Positions 6,155-19,814 of a stretch of DNA of 40,027 bases are shown here, one piece after another. The notes under the pieces were generated by a model that did no database searches, was not told the DNA's origin, and was given only the letters and a program-made list of their open reading frames with translations. The stretch's first letter is position 1. Each line of letters opens with the position of its first letter. The position numbers and the translations under genes are program-made. The DNA comes from Lachnospiraceae bacterium (GTDB lineage Bacteria > Bacillota > Clostridia > Lachnospirales > Lachnospiraceae): positions 1 to 40,027 of the forward strand of contig JAILLI010000123.1 of NCBI GenBank assembly GCA_024693225.1. The letters are read 5' to 3'.

Positions 6155-6199
6155 AAAAAAACAGCCTAAAACGAGACCGGATCCATCCGTTTTACACTG
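6155..6199 (-). terminator. Intrinsic terminator ending the uvrB-polysaccharide operon
   Basis: Minus-strand stem CAGTGTAAAACG (6199-6188) pairs with CGTTTTAGGCTG (6173-6162) with one wobble and one mismatch, enclosing a 14-base loop, followed by seven T (6161-6155). It lies about 120 bases after the last glycosyltransferase stop and before the mbl promoter. The stem is A/U-rich at its closing end, so efficiency could be moderate. Confidence 0.6.
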
Positions 6200-6213
6200 C
6201 TTCCCTGCATGCT

Positions 6214-6274
6214 CGATATTTATATCGGAAGGGGATGCACAAAACTTAACACCCGTTCAAAAAAAAGCATCCCC
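6214..6274. repeat. Small inverted repeats in the 3' region of the glycosyltransferase operon
   Basis: Two palindromic elements lie here. CGATATTTATATCG (6214-6227) has 6-base arms and a 2-base centre. GGGGATGC (6231-6238) and GCATCCCC (6267-6274) form 8-base arms around 28 bases that contain an eight-A run. Their role is unknown. The run of T on the minus strand lies in the loop, so this is not a classical terminator. Confidence 0.4.
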
Positions 6275-6317
6275 GCCCTCTTCTGCAATTTTGTGAAAGA
6301 GTTACAAAAACCGCCCC

Positions 6318-7451
6318 TTAAGATCCGAATATGGCCCGGTACCCCGTATTTGCCACAGACTTTTCGTTTAAAGACGTGATATATACTACACACTTATCCC
6401 GCATGAGCTTGTGTTCTTCTTCGGACATGGCCGCAAGGGTATCGACCGACCTTGCGAATGCCGATATATCGGAAAGCCGGCAGACATAACCGCAGCCCTC
6501 TTTTTCAAGATCAAGCCAGGGGGTGGTATCGCTTATCACCGGAACACAGCCCGAAGCCAGGCTCTCGGCTATGACATGACCGTAGTTTTCTCCCAGGGTC
6601 GGGAACAAAAAGGCATCATAGTTTGCAAAGATCTCCGGCACCTTTTCGCTTTCGGCTTCTCCTTTGTATTCCCAGTCAAAGTGAGGGTGCGATCTTTCAA
6701 GCTGATCGAGTCTTGACCTGCAATCGTCAAGGTAAGCAGCATCCTCTGGCGTCCCGTAAACGTCCAGCTTTATATCCGTATCCTTACCCGTAAGTGAGAG
6801 GATATCGTAAAGTGCCATCAGGTTTTTCTTGGGGGATATGCGTGAAACAAAGACCAGGCGGAGCTTTCCGGCCTCTTTTATCCCCTTATGGGATACAAGG
6901 CCCCTTCTGGGAAGATCGGTCGCGATGATACAGTCCGCTCCACCTCCGATAACGGCGGTAAGCTCTTCCTTTTCGCGCCCGGATGTTACAGACCATACCA
7001 CCTTGCGAAATGCACCCGTAAGCTTCATGTACATTATAAAGAGGCGCTTCTTTAATCCTTTGATCCGAAAGGCCTCCGGAGAAAAGGATCCCATGGGGGC
7101 CACATACAAAGGGCTCTTTATCCTCCCGGCCTTTGCAAGACGCATGGCAAGCCTTGCATAGTCGTCATAGAGGCCCGCAACATATACAACATGGGCATCT
7201 GCGGAAAGCTTTACGACTATATCGGGCGTGTAGTCTTTTATATACCACACCTTTGCCTTGCCCACCCTGTTGTATTCATTGTATTTAATTCCCGGATAAG
7301 GCTCTGTATCCCCGTGATCCCTGTCATGGCACAGGATACGTATATCATATTCATCCCCCAGCCATTCGGTCAGGTTCAGTATCGAACGTACCGGTCCGCC
7401 GTCACGAAAACCGGGCAGATATCTTCCTGCGATTATAAGTATGGTGCGCAT
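6318..7451 (-). CDS. Glycosyltransferase, GT4 (GT-B) family
   Basis: Retaining GT-B glycosyltransferase, 377 residues from the start chosen. The N-terminal domain opens with RTILIIAGRYLPGFRDGGPV, the donor domain has KLRLVFVSRISPKKNLMALY, and the C-terminal EX7E region reads GENYGHVIAESLASGCVPVI. That pattern is normal for GT4 enzymes of polysaccharide synthesis, using a nucleotide sugar. No membrane segment. A longer reading starts at ATG 7475, but ACGGAGAAG sits just upstream of the paired ATGs at 7454/7451, which I prefer. It is the last gene of the uvrB-to-glycosyltransferase block, 8 or more bases after the GT2 gene. Donor and acceptor cannot be read from sequence. Confidence 0.85.
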   Translation of the reverse strand: MRTILIIAGRYLPGFRDGGPVRSILNLTEWLGDEYDIRILCHDRDHGDTEPYPGIKYNEYNRVGKAKVWYIKDYTPDIVVKLSADAHVVYVAGLYDDYARLAMRLAKAGRIKSPLYVAPMGSFSPEAFRIKGLKKRLFIMYMKLTGAFRKVVWSVTSGREKEELTAVIGGGADCIIATDLPRRGLVSHKGIKEAGKLRLVFVSRISPKKNLMALYDILSLTGKDTDIKLDVYGTPEDAAYLDDCRSRLDQLERSHPHFDWEYKGEAESEKVPEIFANYDAFLFPTLGENYGHVIAESLASGCVPVISDTTPWLDLEKEGCGYVCRLSDISAFARSVDTLAAMSEEEHKLMRDKCVVYITSLNEKSVANTGYRAIFGS

Positions 7452-7483
7452 CATCTTCTCCGTGTTGCGGCTCATCGTCGCCG

Positions 7484-17712: not shown

Positions 17713-17731
17713 TTCTTATCCTCCGGCTTTT

Positions 17732-19714
17732 TTAAGAAATGGACTGCAGATGCTTTTTCAGTTCTATCATCTTGTCACGAAGCTGTGCCGCGCTTTCAAA
17801 ATCAAGATCCGTCGCAGCCCGTCTCATCCGCTTTTCAACATCGGCTATAAGCTTCTTAAGCTCTGCCTCATCCATTGATTCCGGATCCTTGGCAAAGCCC
17901 TTTTCTTCCTTTGCGACCTCTTTATGTATGCTTATCAGATCCCTGACCGCCTTACGTATGGTCTCGGGCTTTATGTTATTTGCCCTGTTGTATTCTTCCT
18001 GTATCTTACGTCTTCTTTCGGTCTCCTCTATGGCACTCTTCATGGAGTCCGTCATCGTATCCGCATACATGATGATCCGGCCGTCACTGTTCCTGGCGGC
18101 TCTTCCTATCGTCTGTATCAGCGATGTCTTTGACCGAAGAAAGCCTTCCTTGTCCGCATCGAGTATGGCAACAAGCCCGATCTCCGGAATGTCAAGTCCT
18201 TCCCTGAGCAGATTGATGCCCACCAGGACATCGAAGATGTCAAGGCGCATATCCCTGATTATTTTGGCTCTCTCAAAGGTATCGATATCGGAATGAAGAT
18301 ATCTGACCTTTATCCCGACCTCCTTCATATAGGAAGTCAGATCCTCGGCCATCTTTTTGGTGAGGGTCGTGACCAGTACCTTATTGCCGGCTTTGGTCTC
18401 TTTTCGTATCTCGCCTATAAGGTCATCTATCTGGCCTTTGGTCGGCTTTACCGTAACAGACGGATCCAGAAGGCCCGTGGGACGTATTATCTGCTGGGTC
18501 CGCAGGAGCTCATGGTCCTCCTCGTAAGGGCCCGGCGTTGCGGACACGAACATCATCTGGTCTATTTTACCTTCAAACTCCGTAAAGTTCAAGGGACGGT
18601 TGTCCTTGGCGGACGGTAGGCGGAAGCCGTAATCCACGAGGGATCTCTTCCTGGCCTGGTCCCCGTTGTACATGGCCCCGAGCTGGGGTATGGTCATATG
18701 GGACTCATCGATTATTATCAGGTAATCATCCGGGAAATAGTCCATGAGGGTATAGGGCGGATCCCCGGGCTTTCCCCCGGTAAGGTGCCTTGAATAGTTC
18801 TCTATCCCGGAGCAGAAGCCGGTCTCGAGCAGCATCTCCAGGTCGAACCTGGTCCTCTCATTTATCCTCTGAGCCTCGATCAGCTTGTCTTCGCTCTTGA
18901 AGAACCTTACCTGTTCGGCCAGCTCCTCTTCTATGGTCGAGACCGCTTTTACCAGTTTGTCCCTGGGGATGACATAGTGTGAAGCCGGGAAAACGGCAAA
19001 ATGCGTAAGCTGGGCCCTGGCTTTTCCCGTAAGGGGATCGAACTCCGTTATCCTGTCGATCTCATCACCGAAGAACTCTACCCTTACCGCAACTTCACTC
19101 TCCCAAGCCGGGAATATCTCCACGACATCTCCTGCCACCCTGAAGCGTCCCCTTGTAAAATCGATCTGGTTGCGCTCATAACTTATATCGATAAGTTCGC
19201 GGACCACCTCGTCACGGTCCTTCTGCTGGCCGGGCCGAAGAGACACGATCATGTTCTGGTAGTCATCGGGCGAACCTATGCCGTATATGCAGGATACCGA
19301 TGCGACGACTATGACATCCCTTCTTTCCGAAAGGGAAGTTGTAGCGGACAGGCGGAGCTTGTCGATCTCATCATTGATCGACGAATCCTTCTCTATGTAG
19401 GTATCGGATGATGGTATGTAAGCCTCCGGCTGGTAATAATCATAGTAGGATACAAAGTACTCGACGGCGTTCTCGGGAAAGAATTCCTTAAACTCACTGT
19501 AGAGCTGTCCGGCCAGGGTCTTGTTATGAGATATGACCAGGGTCGGCTTGTTAAGGGCGGCTATGACATTGGCCATGGTGAAGGTCTTGCCGGACCCCGT
19601 AACCCCCAGCAAAGTCTCAAACTGGTTGCCCGCTTTGAAACCATCGACAAGTTCCTTTATGGCCTGAGGCTGGTCGCCTGTCGGCTTATAATCCGAATGT
19701 AATCTGAACTCCAT
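17732..19714 (-). CDS. uvrB: Excinuclease ABC subunit B
   Basis: DNA-damage verification helicase of nucleotide excision repair, 660 residues. Walker [10 protein letters not shown] at 37-45, the beta-hairpin region [20 protein letters not shown] near 91-110, helicase motif with [19 protein letters not shown] sequence near 335-345, motifs [13 protein letters not shown] and QTIGRAARN, and the C-terminal UVR motif [18 protein letters not shown] for UvrC contact. ATG at 19714. It is preceded by a promoter with a SOS box, consistent with the SOS control of uvrB in Bacillus subtilis, and is the first gene of a long operon. The gene itself looks ordinary; its downstream neighbours are the surprise. 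Confidence 0.98.
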
Positions 19715-19763
19715 ATATGCAAAGACTCCCTGAAAGCTGCATTAAAAAATGGCATACCATGAC

Positions 19764-19792
19764 AGTATACCATTTGTAAGATCTCTTGTCTA
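19764..19792 (-). promoter_or_regulatory. Sigma-A promoter of uvrB
   Basis: Minus-strand TAGACA (19792-19787) and TATACT (19769-19764) with a 17-base spacer, close to consensus. Start of transcription would be near 19757, giving a leader of about 43 bases. The SOS box lies 8 bases upstream of the -35. Confidence 0.75.
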
Positions 19793-19800
19793 TAAAAACA

Positions 19801-19814
19801 AGAACATCTGTTCG
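19801..19814 (-). promoter_or_regulatory. SOS (LexA/DinR) operator upstream of uvrB
   Basis: The minus strand reads CGAACAGATGTTCT. The core GAAC-N4-GTTC is a perfect palindrome and matches the Gram-positive SOS box CGAACRNRYGTTYC at 13 of 14 positions. It lies 8 bases upstream of the uvrB -35 element, a possible position for repression. lexA is not in the window. Confidence 0.8.

Follow-up and report, generated by a model that had tools for sequence, protein, structure and literature searches.

We analysed a 40,027-nucleotide stretch of DNA from a Lachnospiraceae bacterium (contig JAILLI010000123.1 of assembly GCA_024693225.1; hereafter the window), which is one whole contig (C100) of a draft assembly of 2.68 Mb in 224 contigs that is 85% complete. 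The excision repair genes uvrB and uvrA lie here codirectionally within one gene string, separated by genes for a polyprenyl-phosphate sugar synthase of the dolichol monophosphate mannose synthase type (DPM), an MBOAT O-acyltransferase and an SGNH protein. The order uvrB-dpm-MBOAT-SGNH-uvrA is a genus-wide cluster newly recognised here; no report of a uvrB-MBOAT-SGNH-uvrA cluster was found among the papers listed by term searches of the open-licence PMC literature.

The gene string and the inserted module

Ten minus-strand genes run from 19714 down to 6318. uvrB (17732..19714; TIGR00631, 1062 bits) is followed by the gene for the DPM-like enzyme, a glycosyltransferase of family 2 (GT2) with a TTG start (16951..17712; PF00535; dolichol monophosphate mannose synthase chain 5mlz, E 8e-62), by those for a PatA/AlgI/DltB-like MBOAT (15479..16951; PF03062, E 9e-37; DltB structures, E 6e-27) and an SGNH acyltransferase with a C-terminal beta domain (13950..15482), and by uvrA (11111..13957; TIGR00630, 1446 bits). 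Behind uvrA lie genes for a phosphoglycosyltransferase, or priming transferase (10490..11110; PF02397, E 3e-55), an SDR/epimerase-like protein (9541..10482, ATG at 10482) and three glycosyltransferases, namely one of group 1 (GT1; 8349..9539; PF13692/PF00534), a GT2 enzyme (7484..8347; PF00535) and another of group 1 (6318..7475; PF00534). The epimerase-like protein had no Pfam match at E 0.001, and its NCBIfam SDR matches were far under the cut-offs. The intergenic gaps are, in order, 19, -1, -4, -8, 0, 7, 1, 1 and 8 bases, so that none exceeds 19; the first 8 bases of uvrA lie within the SGNH gene.

A preliminary description of this DNA had proposed a single operon running from an SOS-box promoter before uvrB to a terminator at 6155-6199, and this anatomy was borne out in strand, gene order and spacing. 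Past the last gene, the minus strand has a region that resembles a terminator hairpin, its 3' arm rich in U (6140..6220; fold -30.4 kcal/mol, z -4.28), and every minus-strand match to a terminator from uvrB to the last glycosyltransferase gene falls within a gene, none in a gap. All ten genes would thus probably be read as one transcript. Promoter-like and terminator-like matches between 5000 and 21500 were in slight excess over shuffled sequence (26 vs 18.5 ± 4.3 and 18 vs 14.0 ± 3.5, respectively). The next gene, mreB, begins 287 bases beyond the last glycosyltransferase gene and has its own promoter-like site. No Rfam family matched the window at gathering scores.

The gene identities given in the preliminary description held for all but one product, the "DHHW" protein, which is better called a PatB1/AlgJ-like SGNH protein. 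In Pfam it falls to ALGX (PF16822, 26.8 bits against a cut-off of 26.5), and its structural model (predicted confidence score pLDDT 75.8, with weak N-terminal parts) matched PatB1 of Bacillus cereus (5v8d/5v8e, E about 1e-10) and AlgJ (4o8v, E about 1e-7). Structure comparison gave no significant match for the C-terminal beta domain of the model, and a sequence profile of the protein found no notable relative among solved structures (best E 0.059). Residues D216, H219 and S321, invariant across 16 alignment rows, are presumably the catalytic triad of the SGNH fold. The MBOAT of the window and of all 34 relatives listed has a WHG motif, whose histidine we take to be catalytic, together with a C-terminal FXYXXF; the latter reads FIYFQF in the window and FIYF[RQ]F in 34/34 relatives with an MBOAT longer than 300 amino acids. 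According to an excerpt of PMC12148441, bacterial MBOATs carry FXYXXF at the C-terminus as an acyl-shuttle motif, and the donor for PatA is acetyl-CoA.

The two proteins therefore look like an envelope acylation pair, and the acyl group moved would be acetyl. They share with PatA1/PatB1, which acts on a Gram-positive secondary cell wall polysaccharide, and with PatA/PatB and AlgI/AlgJ/AlgX (PMC12148441) the combination of an MBOAT carrying a C-terminal FXYXXF and a separate SGNH protein of PatB1/AlgJ fold. Unlike these systems, the pair in the window is preceded by a DPM-like synthase and sits inside a repair operon. Two GT-C (PMT_2) matches in the genome are possible users of the DPM product; the 85% complete assembly gave no match to the SLH domain of S-layer anchoring.

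Conservation of the gene order

Comparisons covered 37 genomes of the genus, with the window's own labelled G000, and 24 genomes from other families of the order. The genus genomes used in counts are mostly drafts, partly of low completeness, and gene calls were mechanical throughout, based on open reading frames (ORFs). The ORFs of 40 loci, from 35 genus relatives, were compared with the window proteins, and loci L199 and L200 were added; the 36th relative, G027, gave no match to uvrB or to the SGNH protein. A pattern-based scan of 84,980 species, one genome each, gave 51 loci with a relative of the SGNH protein, of which L165-L198, probably in large part genus genomes again, were left out of the mapping. 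The relatives that the SGNH alignment detected are mostly recorded as uncultured Lachnospiraceae, frequently from rumen samples.

Among the fetched relatives in which adjacency was testable, the window excluded, uvrB adjoined dpm in 34/34, dpm adjoined the MBOAT gene in 34/35, the MBOAT gene adjoined the SGNH gene in 32/35, and the SGNH gene adjoined uvrA in 28/35; uvrA was next to mreB in 9/25. The search for the same order in other Lachnospiraceae, suggested in the preliminary description, was thus strongly positive. Gene overlaps were frequent in the relatives, though inflated by mechanical start choice. In a tree of UvrB the cluster follows one clade, and L200, placed as sister to the genus, has it as well. 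For the other families, 20 of the 24 genomes were used (G038, G042, G047 and G060 dropped out for want of a full uvrB match, through a split at a contig end, or by the limit of 20), and the module was found at none of these 20 loci, nine of which have uvrA directly after uvrB. MBOAT-SGNH pairs do occur in other Clostridia, Paenibacillus and further organisms (L201-L215, the lower-identity loci of the species scan), where the MBOAT gene likewise adjoins an SGNH relative of 22-36% identity; these differ in that none of the 15 had uvrB or uvrA in its fetched flanks, several of which were shortened by contig ends.

The flanks of the cluster are less uniform. After uvrA, the five-gene block that begins with the PF02397 transferase and ends with the third glycosyltransferase was seen in a single subclade of near relatives and nowhere else among the loci mapped; it was probably added later. 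Before uvrB, both L200 and G005 have a gene for a ctp-type protease adjoining envC, accompanied in L200 by ftsX and ftsE, a hint of an older neighbourhood.

LexA boxes at uvrB and elsewhere

The SOS-box promoter reported in the preliminary description is present. A LexA-type box, CGAACAGATGTTCT, lies at 19801..19814 on the minus strand, and a putative sigma-70-like promoter with an extended -10 (TAGACA-17-TATACT, TGG) follows at 19792-19764. The core of the box, GAACAGATGTTC, recurs in recA promoters of relatives (for example L235 and L237), which marks it as of the genus type; the pattern GAACN4GTTC has 19 sites in the 2.68 Mb assembly, one of them before lexA. The uvrB -10 is contained in the 5' arm of a minus-strand hairpin followed by T6 (19738..19778; fold -13.2 kcal/mol, z -3.0), which might stop transcription from upstream and thereby insulate the operon. 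The sequence AAATGGTATACT was also found before uvrB in G034 and G035, and in G017 at -220. The hairpin pattern occurs once in the window's genome, recurs at uvrB in G034, G035 and, in a looser form, G017, and has matches away from uvrB in G003 and G008.

To be counted, a box had to fit RAACN4GTTY within 400 bases upstream, the same rule serving for uvrB, recA, lexA and mreB. For uvrB, 31 of the 37 genus genomes were testable (the start or a full uvrB was missing in G015, G020, G022, G023 and G027, and G007 had no upstream DNA), and only five had a box: the window's genome, G025, G031, G034 and, at -257, G012. The mean expected by chance, over 32 shuffled stretches, was 0.9. Among these five the spacing from box to -10 is alike by eye. 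When the search was extended to some 2.5 kb before uvrB, as far as sequence reached, with the pattern tightened slightly, a single distant site was added, in G009. By the same rule a box was found at 29/29 genus recA loci, 21/22 lexA loci and 1/19 mreB loci, the last serving as control; the recA and lexA loci were those among the best matches of the searches, with L150 added for lexA. In 28 of the 29 recA promoters (among L229-L258) two LexA-type boxes stand 25-31 bases apart. In the window's own genome recA was not found, the 85% complete assembly giving only a weak match.

Outside the genus, nine of the 20 uvrB loci from other families had a box, all nine among the 13 genomes with a lexA match and none among the seven without one. 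The difference between 5/31 in the genus and 9/13 in other families with lexA has a Fisher p of 0.001, with relatedness ignored. LexA of Clostridium difficile binds the uvrBA promoter, according to an excerpt of PMC4234289, and uvrBA is therefore supported as a usual LexA target. The window resembles this LexA-controlled uvrBA operon of Firmicutes, as the excerpt presents it, in having uvrB and uvrA under one promoter with a box of the GAACN4GTTC type; it differs in the three envelope genes between uvrB and uvrA and the five more genes behind them, and in that, of the 31 testable congeners (a number that includes the window), 26 lack the box.

On the UvrB tree, box state requires at least four changes over the 31 genus rows. 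The genus has two main branches; all five boxed species belong to one of them, and none of the 15 testable rows of the other has a box. G035 and G017 keep the -10 hairpin without a LexA box, and the boxed promoter is therefore probably old, with erosion or rearrangement just upstream having removed it more than once. The ancestral state is not certain, because L200 carries the cluster and has no box before uvrB. Within the cluster, a scan reaching at most 200 bases upstream of dpm, MBOAT, SGNH and uvrA yielded four box matches, two of them before uvrA in genomes with a long gap there (G035 and G023). Among the twelve uvrA loci that include the N-terminus, a box lies within 600 bases at the same two and at none of the other ten, which include those of the five genomes with uvrA on another contig. 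The uvrA box of G035 (L079/L274) and G023 (L058/L273) lies about 60-73 bases upstream, in the long gap to the preceding gene.

Two other boxed sites were noted in the window's genome. The same 36 bases, in which hexamers resembling a -35 and a -10 enclose a LexA-type box, occur at both L156 (G000:C79) and L164 (G000:C192), and the space downstream of them may contain a small SOS gene. A further LexA-type box, the GAACGAATGTTC site (L216 = G000:C56; L154), has a umuC/dinB-like polymerase gene on one side and, on the other, a divergent pair of a second SGNH gene (SGNH2) and an MBOAT gene. SGNH2 has matches in 10 of 61 genomes, the window's included, with close ones only in G018 (68%) and G029 (62%). 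No umuC-like neighbour was seen at any of eight SGNH2 loci mapped in six other genomes, within flanks of about 1.5 kb and with weaker matches left out, and the umu-linked pair was set aside as a basis for interpretation.

Origin and retention of the linkage

We consider it probable that an envelope O-acetylation module was inserted into uvrBA in the ancestor of the genus and has been held there by operon dependence, not by a need for damage-induced acetylation. The DPM-like synthase, MBOAT and SGNH transferase genes would have entered together between uvrB and uvrA and then stayed, transcribed from the uvrB promoter. Acetyl-CoA would donate its acetyl group to the C-terminal tyrosine of the MBOAT, and the SGNH protein would hand the group on to a surface glycan, for which DPM probably provides a lipid-linked sugar. 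In one subclade the phosphoglycosyltransferase, epimerase-like and three glycosyltransferase genes would have been added after uvrA. With its start inside the SGNH gene, uvrA would depend on one transcript with the module, and such dependence may account for the retained linkage. In the window's species the LexA-boxed promoter would raise the whole set above its basal level on DNA damage, a fair prediction from the promoter sequence; that this induction is the reason the genes stay together is unlikely, because the linkage outlasts the box.

Several observations weigh against this account. The linkage is not obligatory: uvrA is on a separate contig in G008, G011, G021, G032 and G036, SGNH stands apart from MBOAT in G003, G013 and G017, and extra ORFs separate MBOAT from dpm in G002 and uvrA from SGNH in G026 and G035. 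Gaps of 100-212 bases in several relatives leave room for promoters, and the box-less cluster of L200, sister to the genus, casts doubt on the old state of the box. Conserved order can also reflect shared ancestry without selection, and the adjacency counts stand without a genome-wide synteny background.

Alternatively, the arrival of the module in uvrBA may have been accidental and its retention due to vertical descent alone, with transcription of its own or by read-through. The cluster does track one clade, and several lineages have broken it yet retain its parts. Against such neutral hitch-hiking, which we regard as unlikely, the gene overlaps suggest coupling, and the upstream edge varies in many species with uvrB-dpm intact throughout: the genes before uvrB in 27 loci, the window and L200 included, fell into 21 groups without similarity at E 1e-5, although these neighbours are mechanical ORFs and the number of groups may overstate their diversity, a further point against operon dependence. 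The linkage could instead owe its existence to LexA control, damage-induced change of a surface glycan being adaptive, for example as envelope shielding during arrested division. The box and promoter in the window, their similar spacing in the four other boxed species and the second box, beside the umuC-like gene and the SGNH2-MBOAT pair, all agree with this; we nevertheless find it very unlikely, as 26 of 31 testable genomes keep the linkage without a uvrB box and the umuC-like neighbour did not recur in the short flanks of the eight SGNH2 loci mapped elsewhere.

The preliminary description had proposed that DNA damage raises production or acetylation of a surface polysaccharide. Its promoter stands in the window, but as a general rule the claim does not hold: with the uvrB box so rare and recA and lexA boxes nearly universal, damage-raised glycan modification is to be expected at best in the window's and a few other species. 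Its alternative, a cassette supplied by repair-operon transcription, fits better. A further reading, which we think quite unlikely, is a joint unit of DNA damage response and envelope remodelling, in which boxed species raise surface-glycan O-acetylation together with excision repair and the operon was elsewhere freed from LexA for constant envelope supply. Least of all do we expect the module to be a D-alanylation pair of the DltB/DltD type. DltB is the sole NCBIfam match of the MBOAT and its solved relatives are DltB proteins, but the score (167.9 bits) is well under the cut-off of 375, the SGNH partner is modelled with a PatB1/AlgJ-like fold, and the acyl-shuttle motif is fused to the C-terminus of the MBOAT, as in acetyl-CoA types according to the excerpt of PMC12148441.

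The patchiness of SOS control across the genus therefore favours operon dependence over a need for damage-induced acetylation as what keeps the module in place. Excision repair and envelope acylation, functions usually treated separately, would then be stably coupled in an uncultured gut group. Boxed and box-less relatives with the same operon core offer a natural experiment on whether loss of SOS control over excision repair goes along with the entry of housekeeping envelope genes into an SOS operon.

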